Of a DNA stretch of 64,000 bases, positions 3,910 to 64,000 are shown piece by piece (the stretch's first letter is position 1; each line of letters opens with the position of its first letter). This stretch comes from Bacteroidaceae bacterium. GTDB lineage: Bacteria > Bacteroidota > Bacteroidia > Bacteroidales > Bacteroidaceae. The DNA lies in the NCBI GenBank assembly GCA_017534535.1, contig JAFXVZ010000010.1, forward strand, positions 1 to 64,000. Direction: 5' to 3'. A program made the translations under genes and the position numbers. The notes under the pieces are model-generated. The model did not search any database. It had not been told where the DNA came from and saw nothing but the letters and a program-made list of their open reading frames with translations.

Positions 3910-4361
3910 TGGAAAAGGATATTAAGGAAAAGAAGTCGTATAAGCTGATAGAGGCCATTGCTAAGATAATGGACAACTATTATGTGGATCCGCTGTTGGG
4001 CTTGGTACCAACGGTGGGAGATGCTGTTACGTCATTTTTGACATTACCTTATCTATACTTCAGTATCTTCAAGCTGAAATCCATTCCCTTGACTTTGGCT
4101 TTACTCTGCAACATGCTGATAGACTTTGCGATGGGTGTGATTCCATTCTGGATTGGCGATGTCCTTGACTTCTTCAACCATAGCTATGTGAAGAACTACA
4201 AACTGATTACAGGTTATGTGGAGGGGGATGAGGAGATGATTAAAAAGGTGGATAGACGAGCTTGGTGGATGGCTTTCCTGATTGTGGTGCTTTGCCTACT
4301 TATTTGGCTATTGATCAAACTTGCTGTATGGGCATGGGATTGGCTCATCGGACTATTTTAA
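3909..4361 (+). CDS. DUF4112 family membrane protein
   Basis: A 150-residue protein that matches the DUF4112 pattern: a LGLVPTVGD segment, then the paired IPFWIGDVLD segment. It has hydrophobic stretches around residues 40-75 and a strong C-terminal membrane segment (about 118-140). The ATG at 3909 shares its A with the upstream TGA, so translation is probably coupled to the transglutaminase-like gene. A GTG one codon earlier is possible but would lengthen the overlap. Function is unknown. The TAA stop runs directly into a 7 bp repeat array. Confidence 0.8.
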   Translation: MEKDIKEKKSYKLIEAIAKIMDNYYVDPLLGLVPTVGDAVTSFLTLPYLYFSIFKLKSIPLTLALLCNMLIDFAMGVIPFWIGDVLDFFNHSYVKNYKLITGYVEGDEEMIKKVDRRAWWMAFLIVVLCLLIWLLIKLAVWAWDWLIGLF

Positions 4362-4434
4362 TTGACGATTGACGATTGACAATTGACGATTGACCATTGA
4401 CAATTTTTCATTGTTCATTATTCATTGTTCATTA
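4361..4434. repeat. Two 7 bp minisatellites (ATTGACN x6 and TTCATTR x4)
   Basis: Six consecutive ATTGACG/A/C heptamers fill 4361-4402. Four TTCATTG/TTCATTA heptamers fill 4407-4434. The array begins in the last base of the DUF4112 stop codon. It also contains the end of aroA on the other strand, whose last residues (MNNE) and TAA stop come from the repeat. Related heptamer arrays occur at five other gene borders in this window. Confidence 0.9.
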
Positions 4435-5662
4435 TCTTGAACCCTGCTTGGTGCAAATCGTTCCAAAAAAGTGGGTAAGATTTGCTTACAACCTCTGGGT
4501 GTTCTATCGTTATGTTAGGCAATCTTAGTGAAGTTGGAGCAAAGGCCATTGCCATACGATGGTCGTCATAGGTGGCAATGATGGGATTATTGACAGGCTC
4601 ACATCGTTCTCCGTTCCAGAGCAAGACATCATCGCCTTCTGCATATAGTACAAAGCCCAATTTGTGGAGCTCGTTCATCAAGGCACTGATGCGATCAGTC
4701 TCTTTAATACGTAAGGTGTGCAAGCCAGTATATCGGAAAGGTATGCCTAACAGACAACAAGTTACTACGAAGGTTTGAGCCAAATCAGGCATCTCTACAA
4801 AGTTTTCCTCCATACGCTCACAAACCTTACCTTGCTTATAAATACGGATGCCTTCTGGGGTAAACTCGGTTTGTACACTCAATGACTTGAACAAGTGAGC
4901 TACCTTGCTATCACCTTGTGAGCTTACTGGCTTCAAATGAGGCAAGGTAATCGAGGCTTCTTTGTCTTGAGAAAGTGCCACCATTTCATACCAATACGAC
5001 GCTGCACTCCAATCATTTTCCACAATGTAGGGAATGTCCCGATAGCCTCCTGCTTGGACAGATATTGTCATCGGGTTTGTGGCATTGTCTCGATGAGCAA
5101 CAGCCCCAAAGTCCTCCATCAGTTGGAGGGTCATATCAATATAAGGCAGGGAGGTGATGTTACCCATCAGCTTCAACGTCAATCCTTGTGGTAAAGTAGG
5201 ACCTATCATCAACAAAGCCGAGATGTATTGCGAACTCACATTGCCTGGTAATGATAATTCTTTGCTTTGCAGTTTTGCACCAGTGATGCGGAGTGGGGGA
5301 TAACCTTCTTGCGCTACATAGTCAATTCTGGCACCCAGGGCTCGTAAAGCATCCACTAAAATGCTGATGGGTCGTTGCTTCATGCGCTCAGTACCAGTCA
5401 TGATGTGAATGCCGGGTTGGGTGCTATAATATGCTGTGAGGAAGCGCATAGCCGTACCCGCCGCTTTGATATCTATAACTTCGTTATTATCTTTGAAAGC
5501 CTTGACGATAACCATTGTGTCATCACAATCTGCCAAGTTCTTGATAGGAGAAGTGCCCTGTGACAATGCTTGAAGTACCAATGCACGATTGCTGATGCTT
5601 TTGGATGCAGGCAAGTGGATGGTGTCACGCAAGATTTGGGGAGCTGATAAATGGTATTTCAT
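4418..5662 (-). CDS. aroA: 3-phosphoshikimate 1-carboxyvinyltransferase (EPSP synthase)
   Basis: A 414-residue enzyme of the shikimate pathway that joins shikimate-3-phosphate and phosphoenolpyruvate to make EPSP in the cytoplasm. Visible motifs are the substrate-binding ASKSISNR (residues 19-26), an AAGTAMRF loop, the GNVSSQYISALL segment, IKETDR and the C-terminal YDDHRMAMA. Length is normal for Bacteroidetes AroA, slightly shorter than the E. coli protein. It lies 11 bases after the AGCS symporter gene and probably shares its transcript. The last residues (KIMNNE) are encoded by a 7 bp repeat array, so the exact C-terminus may vary between strains. aroB of the same pathway lies about 26 kb away. 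Confidence 0.97.
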   Translation of the reverse strand: MKYHLSAPQILRDTIHLPASKSISNRALVLQALSQGTSPIKNLADCDDTMVIVKAFKDNNEVIDIKAAGTAMRFLTAYYSTQPGIHIMTGTERMKQRPISILVDALRALGARIDYVAQEGYPPLRITGAKLQSKELSLPGNVSSQYISALLMIGPTLPQGLTLKLMGNITSLPYIDMTLQLMEDFGAVAHRDNATNPMTISVQAGGYRDIPYIVENDWSAASYWYEMVALSQDKEASITLPHLKPVSSQGDSKVAHLFKSLSVQTEFTPEGIRIYKQGKVCERMEENFVEMPDLAQTFVVTCCLLGIPFRYTGLHTLRIKETDRISALMNELHKLGFVLYAEGDDVLLWNGERCEPVNNPIIATYDDHRMAMAFAPTSLRLPNITIEHPEVVSKSYPLFWNDLHQAGFKIMNNE

Positions 5663-5673
5663 AAGATTAGCAT

Positions 5674-7035
5674 TTAGGGTTCTTCTTCCATCTCTTTATC
5701 CAGCTGGCCGTTCCAAAGATATTTGCGGGTTTCCTGTACGATGATGCCACTCAGACATAATAACGAAATAAGGTTGGGAATGGCCATCAAGGCATTCATG
5801 CAATCGGCCAGATTCCATACGATAGCCAGGTTTGCCACACTGCCTAAGAACACAGCGATGATAAAGAGTACGCGATATATGGTCACCCAACGCTTGCCCT
5901 TAAGGTATTCTACGGCACGTTCGCCATAATAGCACCATCCCAAGATGGTAGAAAAGGCAAAGGTCATCAAGCCGAAGGTCAATAACGGTGTACCGATATA
6001 AGGTATTTTGGAAAATGCCATTTTGGTGAGCGTAGCACCATTGTCGAAACTGATATCAGGGTAGGCGATTACGCTACTTACAATCACTATGCCTGTTAAG
6101 GCACAGATAACCACTGTATCCCAGAATGTGCCTGATGACGAAACCAATGCCTGGCGAACAGGATTACGGGTTTGTGCAGCAGCTGCTACGATTGGGGCAG
6201 AACCCATACCTGACTCATTGGAGAACAAGCCTCTGGCAATACCGAAACGAGCAGCAGTCATTACAGTAGCACCTACAAATCCTCCACCGGCTGCAGTAGG
6301 GGTGAAAGCGGATACACATATAAGCTTTAGTGCCGGCCAAATATATGCAGCATTGAAATACAGAATGATGATGCAACCAATGACATAGAAAAATGCCATA
6401 AAGGGTACAAGCATGCCGCAAACCTTAGCGATGCTCTTTACTCCACCGATGACAACAAGGGCAACCAGAAAGCTGATGATGGCACCTGTGAGATAGGGAG
6501 ATACCTGATAGGATTCCTCCGTAACGGTTGAGATGGCATTGGCTTGCACCATATTACCAATGCCGAAGGAGGCTATGGCAGTAAAGAGGGCAAAGAGTAT
6601 TGCCAACCATTTCCAACCCAAGCCACGCTCCAAAGCATACATGGGACCTCCTTGCATCTTGCCGTCTGTGCCTTTTACTCTGTATTTTATCGCCAATAAG
6701 CCTTCAGCATATTTGGTAGAGATACCAAACACACCAGTAAGCCAACACCACAATACAGCACCTGGACCACCCAAGGCAATGGCTGTTGCCATACCCACGA
6801 TGTTGCCTGTACCAATGGTTGCGGCTAAGGCGGTGGCTAATGAATGGAATTGTGACACATCACCTGTAGCCCCCGGGTCTTTCTTTACAGAAAGCTTGAT
6901 GGCAGTTAAGATCATGCGTTGTGGGAATCGCAACCTGAACGTAAGGTACAGGTGCGTTCCCAGCAACATGATAATCATGGGCCAACCCCAAAGCCAACCA
7001 CTTACCTCGGCGAGTATGTTGTTCAGCTCATCCAC
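5674..7035 (-). CDS. Alanine/glycine:cation symporter (AGCS family)
   Basis: A 453-residue inner-membrane protein with about ten hydrophobic segments and AGCS signatures: SLATALAATIGTGNIVGMA near residue 65, KMQGGPMYALERGLG near 125 and FSNESGMGSAPIV in the middle. Members import alanine or glycine with sodium. The start is a GTG at 7033-7035 that directly abuts the TAA of the GH3 gene, so translation is probably coupled; the next in-frame ATG would cut off the first hydrophobic segment. It sits between a glycosidase and aroA, with no special functional link apparent. Confidence 0.93.
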   Translation of the reverse strand: MDELNNILAEVSGWLWGWPMIIMLLGTHLYLTFRLRFPQRMILTAIKLSVKKDPGATGDVSQFHSLATALAATIGTGNIVGMATAIALGGPGAVLWCWLTGVFGISTKYAEGLLAIKYRVKGTDGKMQGGPMYALERGLGWKWLAILFALFTAIASFGIGNMVQANAISTVTEESYQVSPYLTGAIISFLVALVVIGGVKSIAKVCGMLVPFMAFFYVIGCIIILYFNAAYIWPALKLICVSAFTPTAAGGGFVGATVMTAARFGIARGLFSNESGMGSAPIVAAAAQTRNPVRQALVSSSGTFWDTVVICALTGIVIVSSVIAYPDISFDNGATLTKMAFSKIPYIGTPLLTFGLMTFAFSTILGWCYYGERAVEYLKGKRWVTIYRVLFIIAVFLGSVANLAIVWNLADCMNALMAIPNLISLLCLSGIIVQETRKYLWNGQLDKEMEEEP

Positions 7036-13044: not shown

Positions 13045-13161
13045 ATTGATCATTGACTATTGGCCATTGACCATTATCCATGCGGATGAAGTCAAGCTCA
13101 AAAATCAATGCTCGGTTATTATTCATTATTTAATTGTCAATCGTCAATTGTCAATTGTCAA
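13045..13161. repeat. Heptamer minisatellites between tsaB and DUF4290
   Basis: Five ATTGAYC-type heptamers lie at 13045-13079, just upstream of the DUF4290 start. Four TTGTCAA/TCGTCAA heptamers lie at 13134-13161. The second set contains the tsaB stop codon and its last residues. About 55 bases of ordinary-looking sequence separate them. Confidence 0.85.
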
Positions 13162-13855
13162 TCTTCAAAGGATTCTTTGCCACCGTCGCCACAAACTCCT
13201 TTAGGTAATATGGCTCGAAATACGCCACATCCTTGTAATCTTGCAGGGCGATAGCCTTCTCAGCCAAAGGGAACATCCATTTTGCTACGGGGTGGATGTT
13301 GTCTATGAAATGGGCATTAGGATGTAGGCTCAACACCTCTTTACATTTTGAGGAACCATTGCCGAAGAAATACACTGGACCTTCGTCCAGATAAGTCTTG
13401 TATGTATCAGCATTCACGATATCTGCTTGGGTTTGCCTTACTTCTCGTAAAGCACGATCATAGACAGCTGCATAGACCTCCATCCTGCGAGCATCAATCA
13501 TGGGGCAAAGAAGAGCGTCTTCCGGTAATTCCTGTCTTAGCAATACAGGAACACACAATACTTTCAGTGTAGGAATGCCAATCAGTTTTACATTCCTGCC
13601 ATAGCAAACACCTTTGGCCATAGATACCCCAATGCGCAAACCTGTATAAGAACCAGGACCACAACTCACAGCTACAGCGTCCAAAGGAATGGCATGGCTT
13701 TCAACGAACGAAAGGGCCTCATCGACATAGATTCCCAATTGAGTGTTGTGGTTTGGCCCACTGAAATCCTCCTCGTGCCAGATGTTGCGCCCGTTGTCAC
13801 TTACGGCTACAGAACAAACCTCTGTAGAGGTCTCGATATGTAAAATACACGACAT
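13151..13855 (-). CDS. tsaB: tRNA t6A37 biosynthesis protein TsaB
   Basis: A 234-residue protein of the ASKHA fold that pairs with TsaD (and TsaE) to install threonylcarbamoyl at A37 of ANN-decoding tRNAs. Seen motifs are the N-terminal ILHIETSTEVCSVAVS, NHNTQL and SCGPGSYTGLRIG. The C-terminus (LKIDN) and TGA stop come from a TTGTCAA repeat array, as in rimM. It is separated from DUF4290 by repeats, so common transcription with that operon is uncertain. Confidence 0.94.
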   Translation of the reverse strand: MSCILHIETSTEVCSVAVSDNGRNIWHEEDFSGPNHNTQLGIYVDEALSFVESHAIPLDAVAVSCGPGSYTGLRIGVSMAKGVCYGRNVKLIGIPTLKVLCVPVLLRQELPEDALLCPMIDARRMEVYAAVYDRALREVRQTQADIVNADTYKTYLDEGPVYFFGNGSSKCKEVLSLHPNAHFIDNIHPVAKWMFPLAEKAIALQDYKDVAYFEPYYLKEFVATVAKNPLKIDN

Positions 13856-14847: not shown

Positions 14848-15423
14848 ATGGGAAAGTTAATCATTTTTAGTGCCCCAAGCGGCAGTGGAAAATCCACCAT
14901 CATCAACTATTTGCTGCAAGAGCATCCGGAGTTGAATTTGGCATTCTCCATTAGTGCTACCAGTCGTGCTCCTCGTGGTAGTGAACAGCACGGGGTGGAG
15001 TATTTCTTTTTGTCGCCAGAGGATTTCCGTCAACGCATTGAAAAAGAAGAATTTCTGGAGTATGAGGAGGTATATCCTGGGCGCTTTTATGGTACATTGA
15101 AGTCGCAGGTGGAGAAGCAATCGGAAGACGGCCAAAATGTTTTGTTTGATGTGGATGTGAAAGGTGGCATAAACATCAAGAAATACTATGGAGATCGCGC
15201 ATTGAGTGTCTTTATCCAACCACCTTCAATCGAAGTGCTTCGTCAACGTTTGGAAAAACGTGGAACGGAAACGCCAGAGGTCATCAACGATCGCATTGCC
15301 CGTGCCGAATTTGAACTTGGTTTTGCGCCTCAATTCGACAGGGTGGTGATTAATGATGATTTAGATATGGCCAAAGCAGAGACTCTGCAAGTTATTTCAG
15401 ACTTCCTGCAAGATGGGAAATAA
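14848..15423 (+). CDS. gmk: Guanylate kinase
   Basis: A 191-residue enzyme that phosphorylates GMP to GDP with ATP. The P-loop is in SAPSGSGKST (residues 8-17). The GMP-binding SATSRAPRGSEQHGVEYFF and the YPGRFYGT segment are present. Length is normal. It lies between yicC and a small membrane-protein gene, with nadD following. Confidence 0.97.
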   Translation: MGKLIIFSAPSGSGKSTIINYLLQEHPELNLAFSISATSRAPRGSEQHGVEYFFLSPEDFRQRIEKEEFLEYEEVYPGRFYGTLKSQVEKQSEDGQNVLFDVDVKGGINIKKYYGDRALSVFIQPPSIEVLRQRLEKRGTETPEVINDRIARAEFELGFAPQFDRVVINDDLDMAKAETLQVISDFLQDGK

Positions 15424-15426
15424 TTA

Positions 15427-15454
15427 ATCATTGTTCATTATTCATTGTTCATTA
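15427..15454. repeat. TTCATTR heptamer x4 after gmk
   Basis: ATCATTG, TTCATTA, TTCATTG and TTCATTA follow one another between the gmk stop and the next ATG. They are the same units as at 4407-4434. Confidence 0.85.
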
Positions 15455-15463
15455 TTCTTCAAT

Positions 15464-28956: not shown

Positions 28957-29195
28957 GAAGATGAGAAATTAAGCCGCATTGATGCGATCGGGAAACTCAT
29001 CAAATTAAAAAGAAATACCGAGACAAGCTCCGTATCCCAATGGCGGGCCACGCCCTAATGGGTAACCTTGAGTCGGTGGATTACAAAGGGATCGGGCACT
29101 CAAATCATGTCATTCGGAGTTTCATCTTCATCAAAAATTCAGTGCGGCTACCTATATGGGCAGGTGTCTTTCACAAAAAGATACCTGTCTTTTTA
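28957..29195 (+). ncRNA. Structured non-coding RNA, probably Bacteroidales-1 or 6S-like
   Basis: A transcript of about 240 bases runs from its own promoter to its own terminator just after rplT. Its ends pair: AGCCGCATTGA near 28973 with TCAGTGCGGCT near 29140 (one G-U). Inside this, GAAACTC pairs with GAGTTTC, then ACCGA/CAAG with CTTG/TCGGT around an internal loop. A central CCCA..TGGG/GGCG..CGCC hairpin closes the structure, giving a long rod with an open middle like 6S RNA. The Bacteroidales-1 motif is known from Bacteroidales near L20 genes, which fits the position. Start and end are estimated from promoter and terminator. Confidence 0.7.
29160..29195 (+). terminator. Terminator of the non-coding RNA
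   Basis: GCAGGTGTCTT (29160-29170) pairs with AAGATACCTGT (29178-29188) with wobble pairs, followed by a T-run from 29190. Confidence 0.85.
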
Positions 29196-39854: not shown

Positions 39855-39935
39855 TCTTACGAACTTACGAATTTTCAAGATAATGTATGTATATTATTCG
39901 CTATCTCTTCGTAAGAAATTCGTAAGTTCGTAAGA
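39855..39935. repeat. 20 bp perfect inverted repeat (left flank of array)
   Basis: The arm at 39855-39874, built from TTACGAA units, pairs with 39916-39935 without mismatch around a 41-base loop. The same core sequence recurs 440 bp to the right. Confidence 0.9.
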
Positions 39936-40056: not shown

Positions 40057-40210
40057 GACTATCAGTCAGTTGGTGTAGGATTGGCAGGCGGTTGGTGTCT
40101 GACCGACGGTCAGTTGATGTCTGACCAGCAGTCTTACAGCATCAGACCGGCAGTCTGATACCATTGGACAGGAGTGGACTCAACTTATACTGATAATCAG
40201 TATTATGGCA
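40057..40210. repeat. Array of seven 22 bp units with 13 bp dyads
   Basis: Units start at 40057, 40079, 40101, 40123, 40145, 40167 and 40189, without gaps. Consensus is roughly GACCNNCAGTCNGTTGNTGTCT. Several contain an inverted repeat of 13 bp, such as TGACTATCAGTCA, TGACCGACGGTCA and ACTGATAATCAGT. The spacers between dyads are 9 bp. The array is in a convergent gap of 654 bp that has no gene. Confidence 0.85.
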
Positions 40211-40295: not shown

Positions 40296-40383
40296 TTATC
40301 TTACGAACTTACGAATATCTTACGAATGCATTAGACTATGATATTCATTGTCTATCTATGATTATTCGTAATTCGTAAGATAA
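40296..40383. repeat. Inverted repeat (right flank of array)
   Basis: TTATCTTACGAACTTACGAATA (40296-40317, here split as TTATCTTACGAA and CTTACGAATA) pairs with 40363-40383 with a one-base bulge. It shares the TCTTACGAACTTACGAA core with the left flank. Confidence 0.85.
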
Positions 40384-45882: not shown

Positions 45883-47229
45883 TTATTTGTATATCTTCAA
45901 GGTTTGGCCTGCATTGATGCGGGTACCGCTAATGCCATTCCAACTCTTCAACTGGTTTACCGTTACGCCATATCGTGAGGCAATGCCTGACAACGTTTCA
46001 CCACTCTTTATCTTATGGGTGGTAGCGGTGCCGCTGGCAGGTGTTGCAGCAGTGGTACGCTGTGTGCTGGTGCGTTGCTGACGAGCATTCTGCTGTGGTA
46101 CAGCTACGACTTTGCGATTACGGAAGAATTCGTTGGCACGATGCGCATAGATAGTATCTTGCTTTTCTATGAACATGCCTATGTAGTTCTGTGGTAATCG
46201 TAACGTCTGAGGTTTTGAGTCGCCAGGGATGATACTGCGCTTATATTGTGGGTTCAAACTCTTTATCATGTCGATGTCAACGCCACAGATGTCGGCTATC
46301 TGCTGAAAATGAACATTATGATTAACTTGAATGGTATCGGTAGCCTCTGGCATGTTCGTCTCCATCGGACAGATATTGTGGTTGCAATAATAAGTCATTA
46401 CATAATTGGCTGCGATGAAAGAGGGTACGTAACCTCTTGTTTCTTTTGGGAGGTAGTTATAAATCTCCCAATAGTCACGTTTACCTGAACGACTGATGGC
46501 CTTGTTCACATTGCCAGGACCGCAGTTGTAAGCAGCAATGGCTAAGTTCCAGTCTTTGTAAATGTCGTACATGTCTTTAAGGTAGCGTACCGCAGCCCAG
46601 GTGGATTTGATAGGATCCTGACGCTCATCTACATAGCTATTGTTCTCCAGTCCATATAACTTACCTGTGCCTAGCATAAATTGCCACAAGCCACTGGCTC
46701 CAGCACGAGATATGGCGTTGGGGTTGAGAGCAGATTCGATGATAGGTAGGTATTTCAACTCCAGAGGCAGGTCGTAAGCGTAAAGGGCTTCTTCAAACAT
46801 AGGGATGTAGAAATTGCTAAGGCTCAGCATCAGTGACATGCGCTGACGCAATCGACCAGAGGTGTACTTCTCGATAAATTCACGAACCACCTCGTTGTAA
46901 GGCATCTCAATGATGGCTGGTATGCGGCTTAAACGGTCAATGTAAATGGAATCGCTGAACAAGGGATTCTCATCACTCGTGCTGCAGTCCTTGCCTAAGT
47001 CAATGAAATTCTTCGCTTTCCAGTCAGCTAACAGGCTGTCGATGGGGTAGGTCATACTCAATGGTAACTCAAAACTCTCTGTATGAGTGCCCCCATTGCT
47101 GTCGTGAATGGTCACATTGAAAGTCTCCGGTTCTTGACCGTAAACCGTTGACCGTTGACCATTGACCGTTATCAACGCCAACGCCAACGCCAGCTTTATT
47201 CCTATTTTATTCAGATTCTCCATAATCAT
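45883..47229 (-). CDS. mltD: Lytic transglycosylase with LysM domain (MltD-like)
   Basis: A 448-residue exported enzyme that cleaves peptidoglycan glycan strands. The catalytic glutamate is Glu165 in LPIIESALNP, followed by SRAGASGLWQFM. A LysM peptidoglycan-binding domain closes the protein (about 402-447, IKSGETLSGIASRYGVT). The signal peptide and the residues after it (LALALALITVNGQRSTVYG) are encoded by 6 bp and 7 bp repeats, so its length may vary. It lacks a lipobox. A second ATG two codons on is an equally good start. Confidence 0.93.
   Translation of the reverse strand: MIMENLNKIGIKLALALALITVNGQRSTVYGQEPETFNVTIHDSNGGTHTESFELPLSMTYPIDSLLADWKAKNFIDLGKDCSTSDENPLFSDSIYIDRLSRIPAIIEMPYNEVVREFIEKYTSGRLRQRMSLMLSLSNFYIPMFEEALYAYDLPLELKYLPIIESALNPNAISRAGASGLWQFMLGTGKLYGLENNSYVDERQDPIKSTWAAVRYLKDMYDIYKDWNLAIAAYNCGPGNVNKAISRSGKRDYWEIYNYLPKETRGYVPSFIAANYVMTYYCNHNICPMETNMPEATDTIQVNHNVHFQQIADICGVDIDMIKSLNPQYKRSIIPGDSKPQTLRLPQNYIGMFIEKQDTIYAHRANEFFRNRKVVAVPQQNARQQRTSTQRTTAATPASGTATTHKIKSGETLSGIASRYGVTVNQLKSWNGISGTRINAGQTLKIYK
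47134..47190. repeat. 7 bp and 6 bp repeats inside the mltD signal peptide
   Basis: Five TTGACCG-type heptamers (47134-47168) and three CAACGC hexamers (47173-47190). On the minus strand they encode the signal peptide core (LALALA) and the adjoining VNGQRSTVYG. Confidence 0.85.
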
Positions 47230-59659: not shown

Positions 59660-60628
59660 ATGAACAAAAGGCTGAAAAAATCACTCAAAGCCCTCTTACC
59701 AATCGTTTTGGGAGTCTTTGTGCTGTATTTTGTCTATCGTGACTACGATTTTTCACGCTTAGGCGAAGTGCTGGCACACCAAGTCGCTTGGGATTGGATG
59801 GCATTGTCTCTGCTCTTTGGCGTATTGAGCCACGTGTTTCGTGGCTTGCGTTGGAAGCAGACGCTTCAGCCTTTGGGTGAGCATCCCAAGAGTGCCAACT
59901 GCATCAATGCCATCTTCGTTTCATACGCTGCCAACCTTATTATTCCCCGAATGGGCGAGCTTACCCGTTGTGGGGTGTTGTACAAGACGGATGGTGTCAA
60001 CTTCAGCAAAGCTTTGGGCACAGTAGTCACTGAGCGCATCATCGATGGCGTTTGCATCCTGCTCATTACTGCTTTCACCTTCTTGCTTCAGATGTCCGTC
60101 TTTATGCGGTTCTTCAGCGAGACAGGTACCAAAATACCATCGTTTGCTCATTTGGTGGCCTCTCCTTGGTTCTATGTGAGCCTGTTTTGTGTGATTGGGG
60201 TATGTGTACTCCTCTATTATATAATAAAGGTGTTCGGTTTGCCCAGAAAAGTGCGTGCTCTGTTGTTGGGCATCTGGAAGGGCATACTTTCCGTGCGTCA
60301 GGTAGATAATCCTCCCTTGTTTGTGGGCTACACCATATTAATATGGTTATCCTACCTCCTGCATTTCTATTTTACCTTCTTCTGCTTCGACTTTTCAGCC
60401 GATTTAGGTCTTTTGGCAGGCTTGGTTATGTTCGTAGGAGGCACCTTTGCTGTGATAGTGCCCACACCTAATGGTGCAGGACCTTGGCACTTTGCTGTTA
60501 TCACCATGATGATGCTCTATGGTGTTAGCAATGCTGATGCAGCTACTTTCGCTCTCATAGTTCATGCCATCCAAACCCTCTTGGTGATTATTTTAGGCAT
60601 CTGGGGATGGCTCTTTGGGAATTTGTGA
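59660..60628 (+). CDS. Flippase-like integral membrane protein (LPG_synthase_TM family)
   Basis: A 322-residue protein with about eight membrane segments and family marks VSYAANLIIPRMGELTRCGV, ALGTVVTERIIDG and the C-terminal GGTFAVIVPTPNGAGPWHF. It matches the membrane domain of lysylphosphatidylglycerol synthase without the soluble transferase domain, so a lipid-handling role is likely but the substrate is unknown. After its stop comes a repeat-filled gap of 335 bp. Confidence 0.88.
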   Translation: MNKRLKKSLKALLPIVLGVFVLYFVYRDYDFSRLGEVLAHQVAWDWMALSLLFGVLSHVFRGLRWKQTLQPLGEHPKSANCINAIFVSYAANLIIPRMGELTRCGVLYKTDGVNFSKALGTVVTERIIDGVCILLITAFTFLLQMSVFMRFFSETGTKIPSFAHLVASPWFYVSLFCVIGVCVLLYYIIKVFGLPRKVRALLLGIWKGILSVRQVDNPPLFVGYTILIWLSYLLHFYFTFFCFDFSADLGLLAGLVMFVGGTFAVIVPTPNGAGPWHFAVITMMMLYGVSNADAATFALIVHAIQTLLVIILGIWGWLFGNL

Positions 60629-60672
60629 TAAAGTCACATAATAGCTCCGAGCGGATGCTTCATTTAGTCGGA

Positions 60673-60760
60673 GTAAGCGATCCTTCCTCCCGAAGTAAAC
60701 GAGCCTTCCTCCCGAAGTAAGCGGGCTTTCCTTCCGAAGTAAACGGGCCTTCCTCCCGAA
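60673..60760. repeat. 22 bp array, family A (four units)
   Basis: Units at 60673, 60695, 60717 and 60739 follow GTAARCGRGCYTTCCTYCCGAA without gaps. Each holds CTTCCTCCCGAAG or CTTCCTTCCGAAG at the unit junction, a 13 bp sequence with inverted CTTC/GAAG ends. Confidence 0.9.
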
Positions 60761-60782
60761 GCGGGCATTTGCTTCAACTAAT

Positions 60783-60826
60783 TGCCCCGATTGCTTGAAG
60801 CAAATGGCTCGATTGCTTGAAGCAAT
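60783..60826. repeat. 22 bp array, family B (two clear units)
   Basis: Units at 60783 and 60805 each contain the perfect 13 bp dyad TTGCTTGAAGCAA. The 22 bases before (60761-60782) contain a degenerate copy (ATTTGCTT..AA) and keep the register with family A. Confidence 0.85.
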
Positions 60827-60883
60827 TGAACCCATAGACTTATGCCATCTTAGGGAAGCAATGTATCTTAGTCACGAAGGAAT

Positions 60884-60949
60884 GAGAACGGTGCTCAAAG
60901 GCGATGAGGACGGAGTTCAAGGCAAGCGAGAACGGTGCTCAAAAGCTAA
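60884..60949. repeat. 22 bp array, family C (three units)
   Basis: Units at 60884, 60906 and 60928 begin GAGRACGG. The first and third carry GAGAACGGTGCTC, a 13 bp dyad with one mismatch. The first and second units differ at about a third of positions, so the copies are old. Confidence 0.85.
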
Positions 60950-60963
60950 CAAGAATAGGGTAA

Positions 60964-61446
60964 TTAGTCCTCTTTCGGTTGAATAAATCCAATAGGCTTC
61001 CGTTCTTTCTTAATTGGCTCTTTAGCTTGCAGTTCCGCCAATGCCAAGCTGATGGCGTCCAATTGGGCACGAGTATCCTCATTGATATCGTTTTGGTCAG
61101 CAAGTATTTCGTTTACCTCAGTTCTAACGGCCTCTATTTCCTTGCGAAGTTCAATATAGGTGGCTGCGATTGGAAGTTCAGACAATTGTTGATAAGTCAC
61201 GAAAGCTCGCATGATTTTGCGATTAGTCTGAATAGCAGTTTCTGAACGTAATACGCTACTCAGCATAGCTGTTCCAAGCATTGTGAAAGCATAAGGCATA
61301 TATTGAGATGCTTTCCTTGTGCTTCGTTTAAGGTCACAATGTGACCTTAAACACTCTTCTTTTGTGAGTTGAAACATAAAATTTTCAGGAAAACGTTCCT
61401 TATTACGTTTCACTGCCTGATTTAGACTACGTGAGTGCCAAATCAT
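60964..61446 (-). pseudogene. ORF6N-domain protein fragment (5' end missing)
   Basis: The 160-residue frame begins inside the ORF6N domain at LNQAVKRNKERFPENFMFQLT (split: LNQAVKRN, ERFPENFMFQLT) and continues with YAFTMLGTAMLSSVLRSETAI and a coiled tail. Complete family members have about 35 more residues at the N-terminus. Here an in-frame TGA lies directly before the ATG, so those residues are lost. ORF6N proteins are phage- or mobile-element-associated DNA-binding proteins. The ATG lies inside the hairpin that follows the BspA-like gene. It may still be expressed, but a function is doubtful. Confidence 0.75.
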
Positions 61447-61533: not shown

Positions 61534-64000
61534 TTATTCTGGGATTGCCTGGATTTGGCTTGCATATTGCTTCCATCCATTAGCTGCCTTATAAGCATTT
61601 ACAGAGGCTGCTGGGACATAGATGGTACCAGGCACATTAGTTAATGCATAATTACCCAATGAAGGAGGATTTGTTGCCATGCATGTGATGCTGGTCAGGT
61701 TGCTGCAATTATAAAAAGCATAATATCCAATTGATGTCACACCCTCGGGTATCTCAACGTTGGTCAAGCTGCTGCAATTCTTAAAAGCAGATCCTTCAAT
61801 GGATTTCACTCCCTTTGGTATCACAATGCTAATTAAACTGCTGCAACCAGAAAAAGCAGAACTACCAATTGACGTTACTCCCTCAGGTATCTCAATGCTG
61901 TTCAGGCTGCTACAACCAGCAAAAGCATAATATCCAATGGATTTCATCACCTCTGGTATTATGATGCTATTTAAACTGCTGCATTCATAAAATGCATAAT
62001 TACCAATGGATGTCACCCCCTCTTGAATCACTAAGCTAGTCAGACTGCTGCAATACTCAAAAGCATATTCACCAATAGACGTCACTCCTTCTGGTATCAC
62101 TATGCTATTCAAATTACAACCAGAAAAAGCATAATCTCCAATGGATGATACAAGAATAGGTAACTCTATATTGCTCAAACTGCTGCAACCACTAAAAGCA
62201 TAAACACCAATGGATCTCACGCTCAAGGGTATTTCGATCTTAGTCAAGCTACTGCAATATCTAAAAGATTCTTTACCAATGGATGTTACACCCATAGGTA
62301 TTAATATATTGATCAGGCTGTTGCAACCAGAAAAAGCAGAATTACCAATTGATGTCACACCCTCGGGAATCTCAATGCTTGTCAGGCTGCTGCAACCAGA
62401 AAAAGCAGAATTACCAATTGATGTCACACCCTCAGGTATCACAATGCTTGTCAGGCTGCTGCAACCAGAAAAAGCAGAATTACCAATTGATGTCACACCC
62501 TCTGGTATCTCTATGTTGGTCAGGTTGTAGCAACTAAAAAAGCAATAACTATCAATGGATGTTAAACCATCGAGAATCGTGACGCTTTTCAGGCTGGTGC
62601 AACCATAAAAGCTAATTGAAGTCACACCTTCGGGTATTTCAACACTGGTCAGGCTGCTGCAACCATAAAAACTAATTGATGTTACTCCCTTGGGTATATC
62701 AACACTAGTAAGGCTGCTGCAACCATCTAAACTAATGGATGTTACGCCCTTTGGAATCGTGATACTGGTTAAGTTGAAGCAACCATTCAGAAAATTAATT
62801 GTTTCTATTCCTTTAGGAATCGTAAAGCAGGTTAGGCTGCAGCAATTCTCAAAAGCAGATCCACCAATTAATGTCACGCCCTCAGGTATCACAATACTGG
62901 TCAGGCCGCTGCAATTATAAAAAGCATAATCATAAATAGATGTCACCTCCTCGGGTAACACTATGCTGAACAGGCTGCTGCATTCATAAAAAGCATAATA
63001 TCCAATAGATGTCACCCCCTCGGGTAACACTATGCTAGTCAGGCTACTGCAATTCTGAAACGCATAATTTCCAATGGATATTAATCCCGAAAAATATTTG
63101 AACTCTGGAAATTTTTTAATATTAGTACTTTTAAAAATTTCGCTTATGTCAGTTACAGCTGCAGCTTCTTTATAACTCAGTTCTTCATCATTATTCGCAT
63201 CAAAATTCAATACACAAAGAGCTTTTACAATAGGATCTTCAAAGACAATTATTTCATCGGACGAGGTTCCCTCACCCGATTCTTGCGAATTATCTTTCTC
63301 AAAAGACTGTTCTATTATATACTGTTTTCCTGCTTCCAAATCATGACCTGTAAGTGTTTTTGAATAATAGGAAGAACCATACAATGATAATTTGAGACTT
63401 CCTTGAGACAAATCAACAGGTAAAACCATCATATAAGCATTTAAAATAGAAAGATCAGATGATAAATCAATTTTGTCTAATTTAAGTGTTATATGGTCTT
63501 TTGTTTCAACAGCTTTTAGTACGGGTTCATTGCCAGAGATATCCAACTCGGCTTTAGTGACAAATACCTTCTCTGTGGAGGTCAAAGTCAGTGAGGTATA
63601 AGTACCTGCTTTGGGAACAGTAAGTTGGAACACCATCAAAGCTCCGAGGTGCTTGAACTGGAAGTTCAGATAACCTGAGCTATTGGTGGTTACGCCACTT
63701 GTAGCTTGATAATCATATTGACCTAAATGTGCAGTATTACCATTAGCCGTTTGCTTCTGACCCGTAAAATCCACCTGAATAGTCTTGTTGGTGTAATAAC
63801 TGTTATTGGCACTATAAGGATAATAAGCCGCATAAGTACTATTTGATTTCAAAGCCCATCCTCCGCCATCGAAAGTGGCTTGGTTGCTGGCTGTGCCTGC
63901 CTCTATGGGAAACTCCACCTGTCCACCCACATTCGGGAAGATACCAATGGTGTCATTAGATGCCCAAGTAACCTTTACGCCACCATCAGTAGCAGAATAA
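61534..64000 (-). CDS. Fimbrillin-like/BspA-type leucine-rich repeat surface protein (5' end outside window)
   Basis: The frame is open to the window edge, so the N-terminus is missing; about 822 residues are visible. The first 240 resemble Bacteroidetes fimbrillin (Mfa-like) domains: TWASNDTIGIFPNVGG, YAAYYPYSANNSYY, FKHLGALMVFQL. A short FDANNDEELSYKEAA segment looks like an EF-hand or dockerin-type loop. Then about 20 BspA-type repeats of 20-23 residues follow, with the pattern SLTSIVIPEGVTSIGNSAF. The end, NPPSLGNYALTNVPGTIYVP, is the usual BspA cap. A surface adhesin role is likely. A GTG at 63930 is not the start. Confidence 0.9.
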   Translation of the reverse strand, partial: YSATDGGVKVTWASNDTIGIFPNVGGQVEFPIEAGTASNQATFDGGGWALKSNSTYAAYYPYSANNSYYTNKTIQVDFTGQKQTANGNTAHLGQYDYQATSGVTTNSSGYLNFQFKHLGALMVFQLTVPKAGTYTSLTLTSTEKVFVTKAELDISGNEPVLKAVETKDHITLKLDKIDLSSDLSILNAYMMVLPVDLSQGSLKLSLYGSSYYSKTLTGHDLEAGKQYIIEQSFEKDNSQESGEGTSSDEIIVFEDPIVKALCVLNFDANNDEELSYKEAAAVTDISEIFKSTNIKKFPEFKYFSGLISIGNYAFQNCSSLTSIVLPEGVTSIGYYAFYECSSLFSIVLPEEVTSIYDYAFYNCSGLTSIVIPEGVTLIGGSAFENCCSLTCFTIPKGIETINFLNGCFNLTSITIPKGVTSISLDGCSSLTSVDIPKGVTSISFYGCSSLTSVEIPEGVTSISFYGCTSLKSVTILDGLTSIDSYCFFSCYNLTNIEIPEGVTSIGNSAFSGCSSLTSIVIPEGVTSIGNSAFSGCSSLTSIEIPEGVTSIGNSAFSGCNSLINILIPMGVTSIGKESFRYCSSLTKIEIPLSVRSIGVYAFSGCSSLSNIELPILVSSIGDYAFSGCNLNSIVIPEGVTSIGEYAFEYCSSLTSLVIQEGVTSIGNYAFYECSSLNSIIIPEVMKSIGYYAFAGCSSLNSIEIPEGVTSIGSSAFSGCSSLISIVIPKGVKSIEGSAFKNCSSLTNVEIPEGVTSIGYYAFYNCSNLTSITCMATNPPSLGNYALTNVPGTIYVPAASVNAYKAANGWKQYASQIQAIPE
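62324..62530. repeat. Three near-identical 69 bp units in the BspA-like gene
   Basis: The stretch beginning CAACCAGAAAAAGCAG recurs at 62324, 62393 and 62462, exactly 69 bp (23 codons) apart, nearly unchanged for about 40 bases. Other repeats in the gene differ more, so these three are recent duplications or have been homogenised. Confidence 0.9.

Follow-up and report, generated by a model that had tools for sequence, protein, structure and literature searches.

How can tandem units of dissimilar sequence come to stand on one and the same 22-bp period within a single intergenic gap? The question is raised by the window (the whole stretch of 64,000 nucleotides analysed here, from a Bacteroidaceae bacterium), in which the gap at 60629-60963, between a flippase-like gene and an ORF6N gene, holds ten cores in three blocks, A, B and C (Table 1). 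The step between cores is 22 bp throughout A, B and C, and the best lag-22 identity of the gap (39/44) lies far above the maximum of 27 reached by 500 dinucleotide shuffles, each allowed the best of all lags from 12 to 40. Taken singly (lags 15-30), each block was equalled by 0/300 shuffles. The observation on which the original prediction was built is confirmed, and its argument that 22, being indivisible by three, excludes a coding origin of the period is sound. The step from A to B is 20 bp and that from B to C 71 bp, so the three blocks are not in common phase.

Table 1. Positions in the window of the array gap, its neighbouring genes and the second array
Feature	Position	Strand	Remarks
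LPG_synthase_TM (PF03706) flippase-like gene	59660..60628	+	upstream of the array gap
Leader and first unit of the dispersed four-unit element	60644..60676	+	core TTAGTCGGAGTAA at 60664-60676; omitted from the count in the original prediction
Four type-A 22-bp units, an amplification of the element's second unit	60677..60764	+	cores at 60683, 60705, 60727, 60749
Three type-B units, representing places three and four of the element	60765..60834	+	cores at 60769, 60791, 60813
Three type-C units, GAGAACGGTGCTC-like	60884..60940	+	cores at 60884, 60906, 60928; 22-bp steps; separate family
ORF6N-domain gene (PF10543)	60964..61446	-	converges on the array gap from the right
Second lag-22 array of the window, GTCAGTTGGTGTCTGACC-like	40060..40166	+	scan span 40060-40134; more similar units by eye

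The prediction had counted four A, two clear B and three C units and had given a 13-bp dyad to all of them. The counts for A and C stand, while B has three cores, the first of which, TTGCTTCAACTAA, is a half-site hybrid with 4/6 pairs. The dyad is complete (6/6 pairs) only in the other two B units; A shows 4/6 pairs, with 3/6 in one copy, and C shows 5/6, with 3/6 in the middle copy. Over the whole 22-mer, A agrees with its own reverse complement at 10/22 positions (p 0.975, no excess over chance) and B at 16/22 (p 0.025). Block B retains the 22-bp steps although its two inter-core spacers are inverted relative to A.

The three blocks had been described as unrelated families, which holds for C, whereas A and B are units of one dispersed element. 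They had been kept apart because the consensus alone makes them look unrelated, with 11/22 matches at the best rotation against a null mean of 10.2. In the genome to which the window belongs, a mismatch search found CATCCTCCCGAAG at eight places besides the window, and a ninth place, with one further mismatch, was also found by BLAST. Nine loci (L230-L238, out of 26 distinct loci printed) have four units in the order TTAGTC-type or similar, A-type CCTCCCGAAGTAA, TTGCTTCAACTAA-type and TTGCTTSAAGCAA-type, with some variation; the A-type unit is single-copy there and holds the second place. In the window, the leader and first unit of the element are followed by four A units, and these by units of the third and fourth types. 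The window thus contains a copy with amplified units and, judging by the other copies, a small deletion at the A/B junction. Its leader and first unit recur at L230 and in the equivalent gap of L038, a locus of the closest relative. With up to one mismatch, the unit pattern has 109 matches in its own genome against 4 for the reversed control (both strands; some cores count twice). Without mismatch it has 33 in its own genome, 10 in G194, 8 in G123, and at most 1 in each of the other 146 of 149 sampled genomes of the genus. Family C gave 14 sites against 8 for the reversed pattern in 464 kb of the same genome, and its dispersal is not established.

Other gaps of this genome do have lag-22 structure, the lack of which had been named as grounds for giving up the claim: an array is visible at 25/26 of the distinct loci printed, window included, and the one that shows none (L250) is cut by a contig end. 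The array noted earlier at 40 kb is real as well, with an identity of 0.705 in the scan, just above the threshold, and a related array lies at L125 in the same genome. Inverted pairs CTTACGAA/TTCGTAAG at 39856-39934 and 40297-40378 flank the 40-kb array, like two bracketing hairpins.

The period is not a peculiarity of one genome. A sequence-blind scan for arrays, which masked short periods and asked for at least 3 copies at 70% identity, was written after a looser scan had already revealed the lag-22 excess, and was then kept fixed for all chromosomal surveys, plasmids being scanned at 68%. It returned 39 period-22 arrays in 151 Bacteroides-type pieces (1,973,553 bp), a set to which the window itself belongs, its three arrays having been the reason for the search, along with flippase loci labelled Phocaeicola or Prevotellaceae; two loci are counted twice in it (L058 in L193, L093 in L195), neither of them carrying an array. 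The next most frequent periods in the same set were 15 (8 arrays), 24 (6), and 14 and 21 (4 each), none exceeding 8, and lag 23 occurred once. The control set, 51 pieces (1,038,164 bp) of other Bacteroidota, mainly stretches around ksgA, together with 50 kb of E. coli, gave 2 lag-22 arrays (L219:5986 and L336:14709). One shuffle of the own-genome pieces gave zero arrays at any lag. Both control arrays have CGTCATTGCGAG in common, a REP-like repeat that recalls the CGTC-tagged REPs. Repeats of the CGTC-tagged type are reported in Bacteroidetes, and the passages of that report on them do not contain the string CGTCATTGCGAG itself (PMC3733652).

At a limit of 16/22 matches (the 99.9% point of the null being 15), the 39 arrays fall into 25 clusters, which is an overcount by at least one, since window A and B, parts of one element, sit in two of them. 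A constant 22-bp geometry with free sequence, as originally proposed, is thus found in 1.97 Mb and is broader than could be seen from the window. A full-unit dyad at p 0.05 was reached by 18/39 period-22 arrays (6 of the 18 belonging to one family of G120), as against 1/56 arrays of other periods; the 21/39 that miss this level include window A. Because such arrays have their geometry in common and not their sequence, the usual motif search from one species to another would fail to find them. One of the 22-bp arrays (L109:5558-5642) lies near a tmRNA gene (5715-6110, minus strand).

The gap after the flippase can be compared between loci. In 7/80 flippase loci (L038, L041, L042, L045, L066, L076 and L087) a 22-bp array follows the flippase match at a distance of 18 to 205 bp. 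The consensus units of these seven agree with one another and with the window at 8-13/22 positions, within the null (99% at 14), with the exception of L038 against window A (18/22). L038 comes from the closest relative (flippase 93% identical) and has the same leader and first unit, followed by about six units of an altered A type; unit number and core have thus changed together while the period was held. L031-L037 (flippase identity 83-89%) have no lag-22 array in that gap, and their sequence past the flippase looks different; an array at this place is thus not a general trait of close relatives. Of the two grounds named for giving up the claim, neither applies as worded: periodicity of the same gap in related strains is borne out by L038, though not by L031-L037. 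In another of these loci (L087:5779-6011), two dissimilar cores, GAAGTGCCACTTC and CCACCCGGGTGG, are adjacent and the first returns after the second, a mixing habit as in the window. At L065, after position 3954, 22-bp repeats recur, by eye, in inverted orientation beyond a long hairpin-like stretch.

Conservation could be followed in another dispersed family, TGTACAAAAGAATGCATTCTTC (TGTACA), of genome G120. Its pattern has 353 matches in G120, 336 in G276, 325 in G154, 275 in G229, 257 in G178, 253 in G202 and 153 in G216 (both strands; the number of places is about half), against 1 in G150 and 0 in the other 141 of the 149 sampled genomes of the genus, with 0-2 for the reversed control. TGTACA arrays were absent from all 80 flippase loci. 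The number of TGTACA hexamers standing at 22-bp steps is exactly four in 27/29 G120 arrays, which derive from the 30 best BLAST loci and are thus the best-scoring copies, and in 10/10 pieces fetched from G276, good copies by choice.

The gaps after leuB and mntH were chosen by gene orthology and are the sole two for which TGTACA in the other genomes played no part in the choice. At leuB the array is retained in 7/7 genomes of the clade, G154 having lost exactly 22 bp, that is, one whole unit. The mean pairwise mismatch there is 0.000 in the TGTACA columns, 0.190 between hexamers, and 0.274 and 0.338 in the flanks. At mntH, 5/7 genomes have four TGTACA, G202 has two and G216 has no array, which indicates that the array is dispensable at this gap. 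With 5 of the 7 genomes aligned, the mntH mismatch is 0.000 in the hexamers, 0.100 between them, and 0.298 and 0.199 in the flanks; the flanks used, of 45 and 60 columns, include some gene-end sequence. Where the array is kept, both hexamer and spacing are conserved. Three other genomes per gap had no TGTACA array in the stretch printed and no lag-22 array in the 600 bases fetched. Two further pairs, L400/L359 and L404/L343, gave 0/24 hexamer mismatches, a figure biased to conservation because the pairs were found through the motif; they represent 2 of the 10 G276 pieces, the other 8 having no clear two-sided partner.

These arrays may be a phased platform for a putative dimeric DNA-binding protein, a reading drawn from sequence comparison to which we assign a probability of about one half. 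An array of this class has a few dyads (four in the TGTACA family, the best studied), whose centres stand 22 bp apart, and lies in a gap between genes of a Bacteroides-type genome; a repeated palindromic 22-mer amounts to 11-bp half-sites of alternating orientation. A dimer would sit on each dyad, and the spacing of 22 bp, about two helical turns, would bring successive dimers to nearly the same face of the DNA, where they could bind together. That 22 bp is an inexact multiple of 10.5 weighs against this helical phasing. The 21/39 arrays short of a significant dyad, the concentration of 6 of the 18 dyad arrays in one family and the dispensable mntH array weigh against the platform reading, while the lag-22 excess, the dyad symmetry, the high copy number of the two families and the invariant hexamer speak for it. 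A specificity of the protein that differs between clades would produce turnover of sequence under constant geometry. The effect might be architectural or exerted at transcript ends, as the arrays are somewhat commoner between convergent genes, and an array probably moves to new places as a whole, in some cases within a MITE-like element. The original prediction had offered either a set of binding proteins or a unit-copying process under which the core is free to evolve. Its interpretation is partly supported: binding proteins fit better, because the core is precisely what the orthologous arrays of the TGTACA clade conserve.

A common gut genus appears, then, to maintain arrays between its genes that lineages share in geometry and not in sequence; in those lineages where they were counted, a genome has dozens. 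If a protein of changing specificity binds them, the arrays would represent an architectural or regulatory layer of Bacteroides chromosomes that we did not find described in the literature searched. A bolder proposal, which we regard as speculative and hold with considerable doubt, is a genus-wide chromosomal binding system that would keep its layout constant, with a dyad at every 22 bp, a few dyads at each site and dozens of such sites in a genome, and would change its sequence specificity from one lineage to the next. Protein and site arrays would change together, a bacterial counterpart of the co-evolution of satellites and their binders, and the many sequenced species would in that case form a natural experiment in the co-evolution of a DNA-binding protein and its sites.

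The arrays could instead be non-autonomous selfish repeats, minisatellites carried in MITE-like elements, with no host function and with a period of 22 that stems from the mode of copying. We consider this a serious alternative, though an unlikely one. Six copies in the window's own genome (L230-L233, L238 and L241) do lie inside MITE-like elements, about 167-179 bp long, whose inverted ends are alike and of the kind TGCATAAATATGCG and CGTATTTATATGCA. In G120, 16 copies, one of them the query, have in common an outer element that surrounds the core and measures about 155 bp. High copy number in one clade with absence elsewhere, and a unit number that varies between the window and L038, would also be expected of such repeats. 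However, many of the printed G120 loci (L359-L371) hold the core without the outer element, and at two orthologous gaps the flanks change but the hexamer does not. A dyad number nearly constant at four in the copies examined, and one period common to dissimilar families, likewise argue against selfish repeats. Selfish or not, arrays that set some 25 dissimilar unit sequences to one fixed 22-bp ruler call for an explanation. A second kind of context was seen by eye at L234, L236 and L237, where one end of the array, or each of them, has a TTCTAAAT-like sequence (GTTCTAAAT, GTTCTATAT) close by.

A published precedent for such selfish repeats is BrickBuilt, a minisatellite-MITE of Porphyromonas gingivalis with a 23-nt period, 1 to 22.8 units and 19 copies of one sequence family, according to the parts of its description consulted (PMC4596501). 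The same parts make the likeness clear: BrickBuilt belongs to the same bacterial order, is intergenic and consists of dispersed short tandem units, often within a leader and tail with inverted ends, and its authors predicted stem-loops (PMC4596501). The arrays described here differ in that the unit is 22 bp rather than 23 nt, the units are few, the sequences fall into about 25 dissimilar clusters, and a hexamer is conserved at two orthologous gaps. Inverted ends are present around the six own-genome arrays, and part of the G120 copies have a larger outer element that others lack. The literature searched, judged mostly from listings, yielded no description of 22-bp arrays of this kind, and BrickBuilt was the closest published relative in it (PMC4596501).

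It is also conceivable, if improbable, that the arrays work in RNA, as 3'-UTR hairpins that process or stabilise transcripts or aid termination. Gene context lends some weight to this: 11 arrays lie between convergent, 14 between co-directional and 5 between divergent genes, against 19%, 53% and 28% of gap length, for the 30 arrays whose orientation could be taken from a simple ORF caller (9/39 were excluded, 5 inside a called ORF and 4 at an edge). The 29 G120 arrays gave 10, 14 and 5 against 18%, 52% and 30%. The convergent lean (one-sided binomial p 0.02 for the 30 arrays and 0.03 for G120) is as expected of a role at 3' ends, but the 5/30 and 5/29 arrays between divergent genes are not. 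An inverted repeat followed by T residues just past the leuB array of G120, and a G120 core that is quasi-palindromic as a whole, with both strands matching, would suit hairpins too. The window gap, however, folds no better than its shuffles (z -0.34 and -0.32), and a scan of the window and 8 array loci against Rfam, at the gathering threshold, placed no RNA family over an array. FopS sRNAs were considered and set aside, having a conserved single-stranded seed and a terminator rather than arrays in the parts of their description consulted (PMC11697453).

Covariation bears on both hairpin and protein. Both arms of the own-genome cores draw their half-sites from one set (TTACTT, TTGCTT, TTAGTT and variants). 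Positions 3/11 of the core covary, with 25 complementary pairs against 17.9 in shuffles (p 0.018), which counts against the protein reading and would also be produced by a hairpin. Positions 4/10, in contrast, gave 25 complementary pairs against 24.8 expected (16 arrays, 37 cores), that is, no compensation; an earlier, looser collection had 35/71 complementary at these positions, without an expectation computed. Pairing between units of the own genome was at or below chance (12 against 13.7 and 11 against 11.5). In G120 complementarity fell below chance (33 against 40.5, 30 against 44.4 and 7 against 25.0), in copies that share descent. The common half-sites and the lack of compensation at positions 4/10 count for the protein reading; the lack of covariation at 4/10 and between units, and the G120 result, count against RNA.

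Plasmid replication offers another source of short tandem units. Iteron arrays are tandem units of about 17-22 bp, several per array, and the window and survey arrays fall within this unit size. In Bacteroidota plasmids, units of 22 bp (pBF9343), 21/22 bp (pBFY46) and 22 bp (pB3-10), at least three per array, stand beside a replication initiator gene (Rep_3 by Pfam in pBF9343, and by similarity to the pBF9343 Rep in the other two), which gives the period a precedent among initiator-binding sites. Chromosomal copies of such initiator sites that titrate or handcuff incoming plasmids would account for many dissimilar sequences with one geometry, but we regard this as very unlikely. The iterons of the three plasmids adjoin the rep gene and have no dyad beyond chance (p 0.35-1.0), whereas the chromosomal arrays are dispersed. 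Rep3_N is absent from 11/14 genomes searched, including the window's own genome (G000) and all 7 genomes of the TGTACA clade, and present in G118, G129 and G130; a resident Rep_3 initiator is thereby rejected for the own genome and for that clade. At the 68% threshold, p5482, which has Rep_3, and pBI143 lack such iterons, and CP103360 has a weak one. At E 1e-5, neither the window gap nor the G120 core matched any of 72,556 plasmids; at E 10 the same two queries gave weak matches only, the best (E 0.01) in Vibrio plasmids. Spread of these two queries by sequenced plasmids or phages was likewise rejected, with zero matches at E 1e-5.

REP/BIME elements are dispersed extragenic palindromes in mosaic groups, with lineage-specific families. 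The idea that the arrays, which are themselves dispersed, intergenic, palindromic and lineage-specific, are such elements moved by a RAYT (Y1 transposase) can practically be dismissed, as they stand on a strict 22-bp lattice, 5/6 Bacteroides genomes lack Y1_Tnp (PF01797), which was found in 1/6, and its absence from the own genome (89% complete) and from G120 rejects RAYT mobilisation for both.

The window has other features besides its 22-bp arrays. Runs of 7-bp units of the ATTGACC/ATTGTTC type are present at 4360-4435, 13045-13168, 15423-15457 and 47134-47170, some of them with a higher order of 14 or 21 bp. Beside the ORF6N gene, on the minus strand at 61534-64000, lies a large gene built of 60-69-bp (20-23-residue) repeats, which we take from its appearance to be BspA-like. 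Finally, positions 28972-29155 match the Bacteroidales-1 RNA, a suggested 6S RNA.
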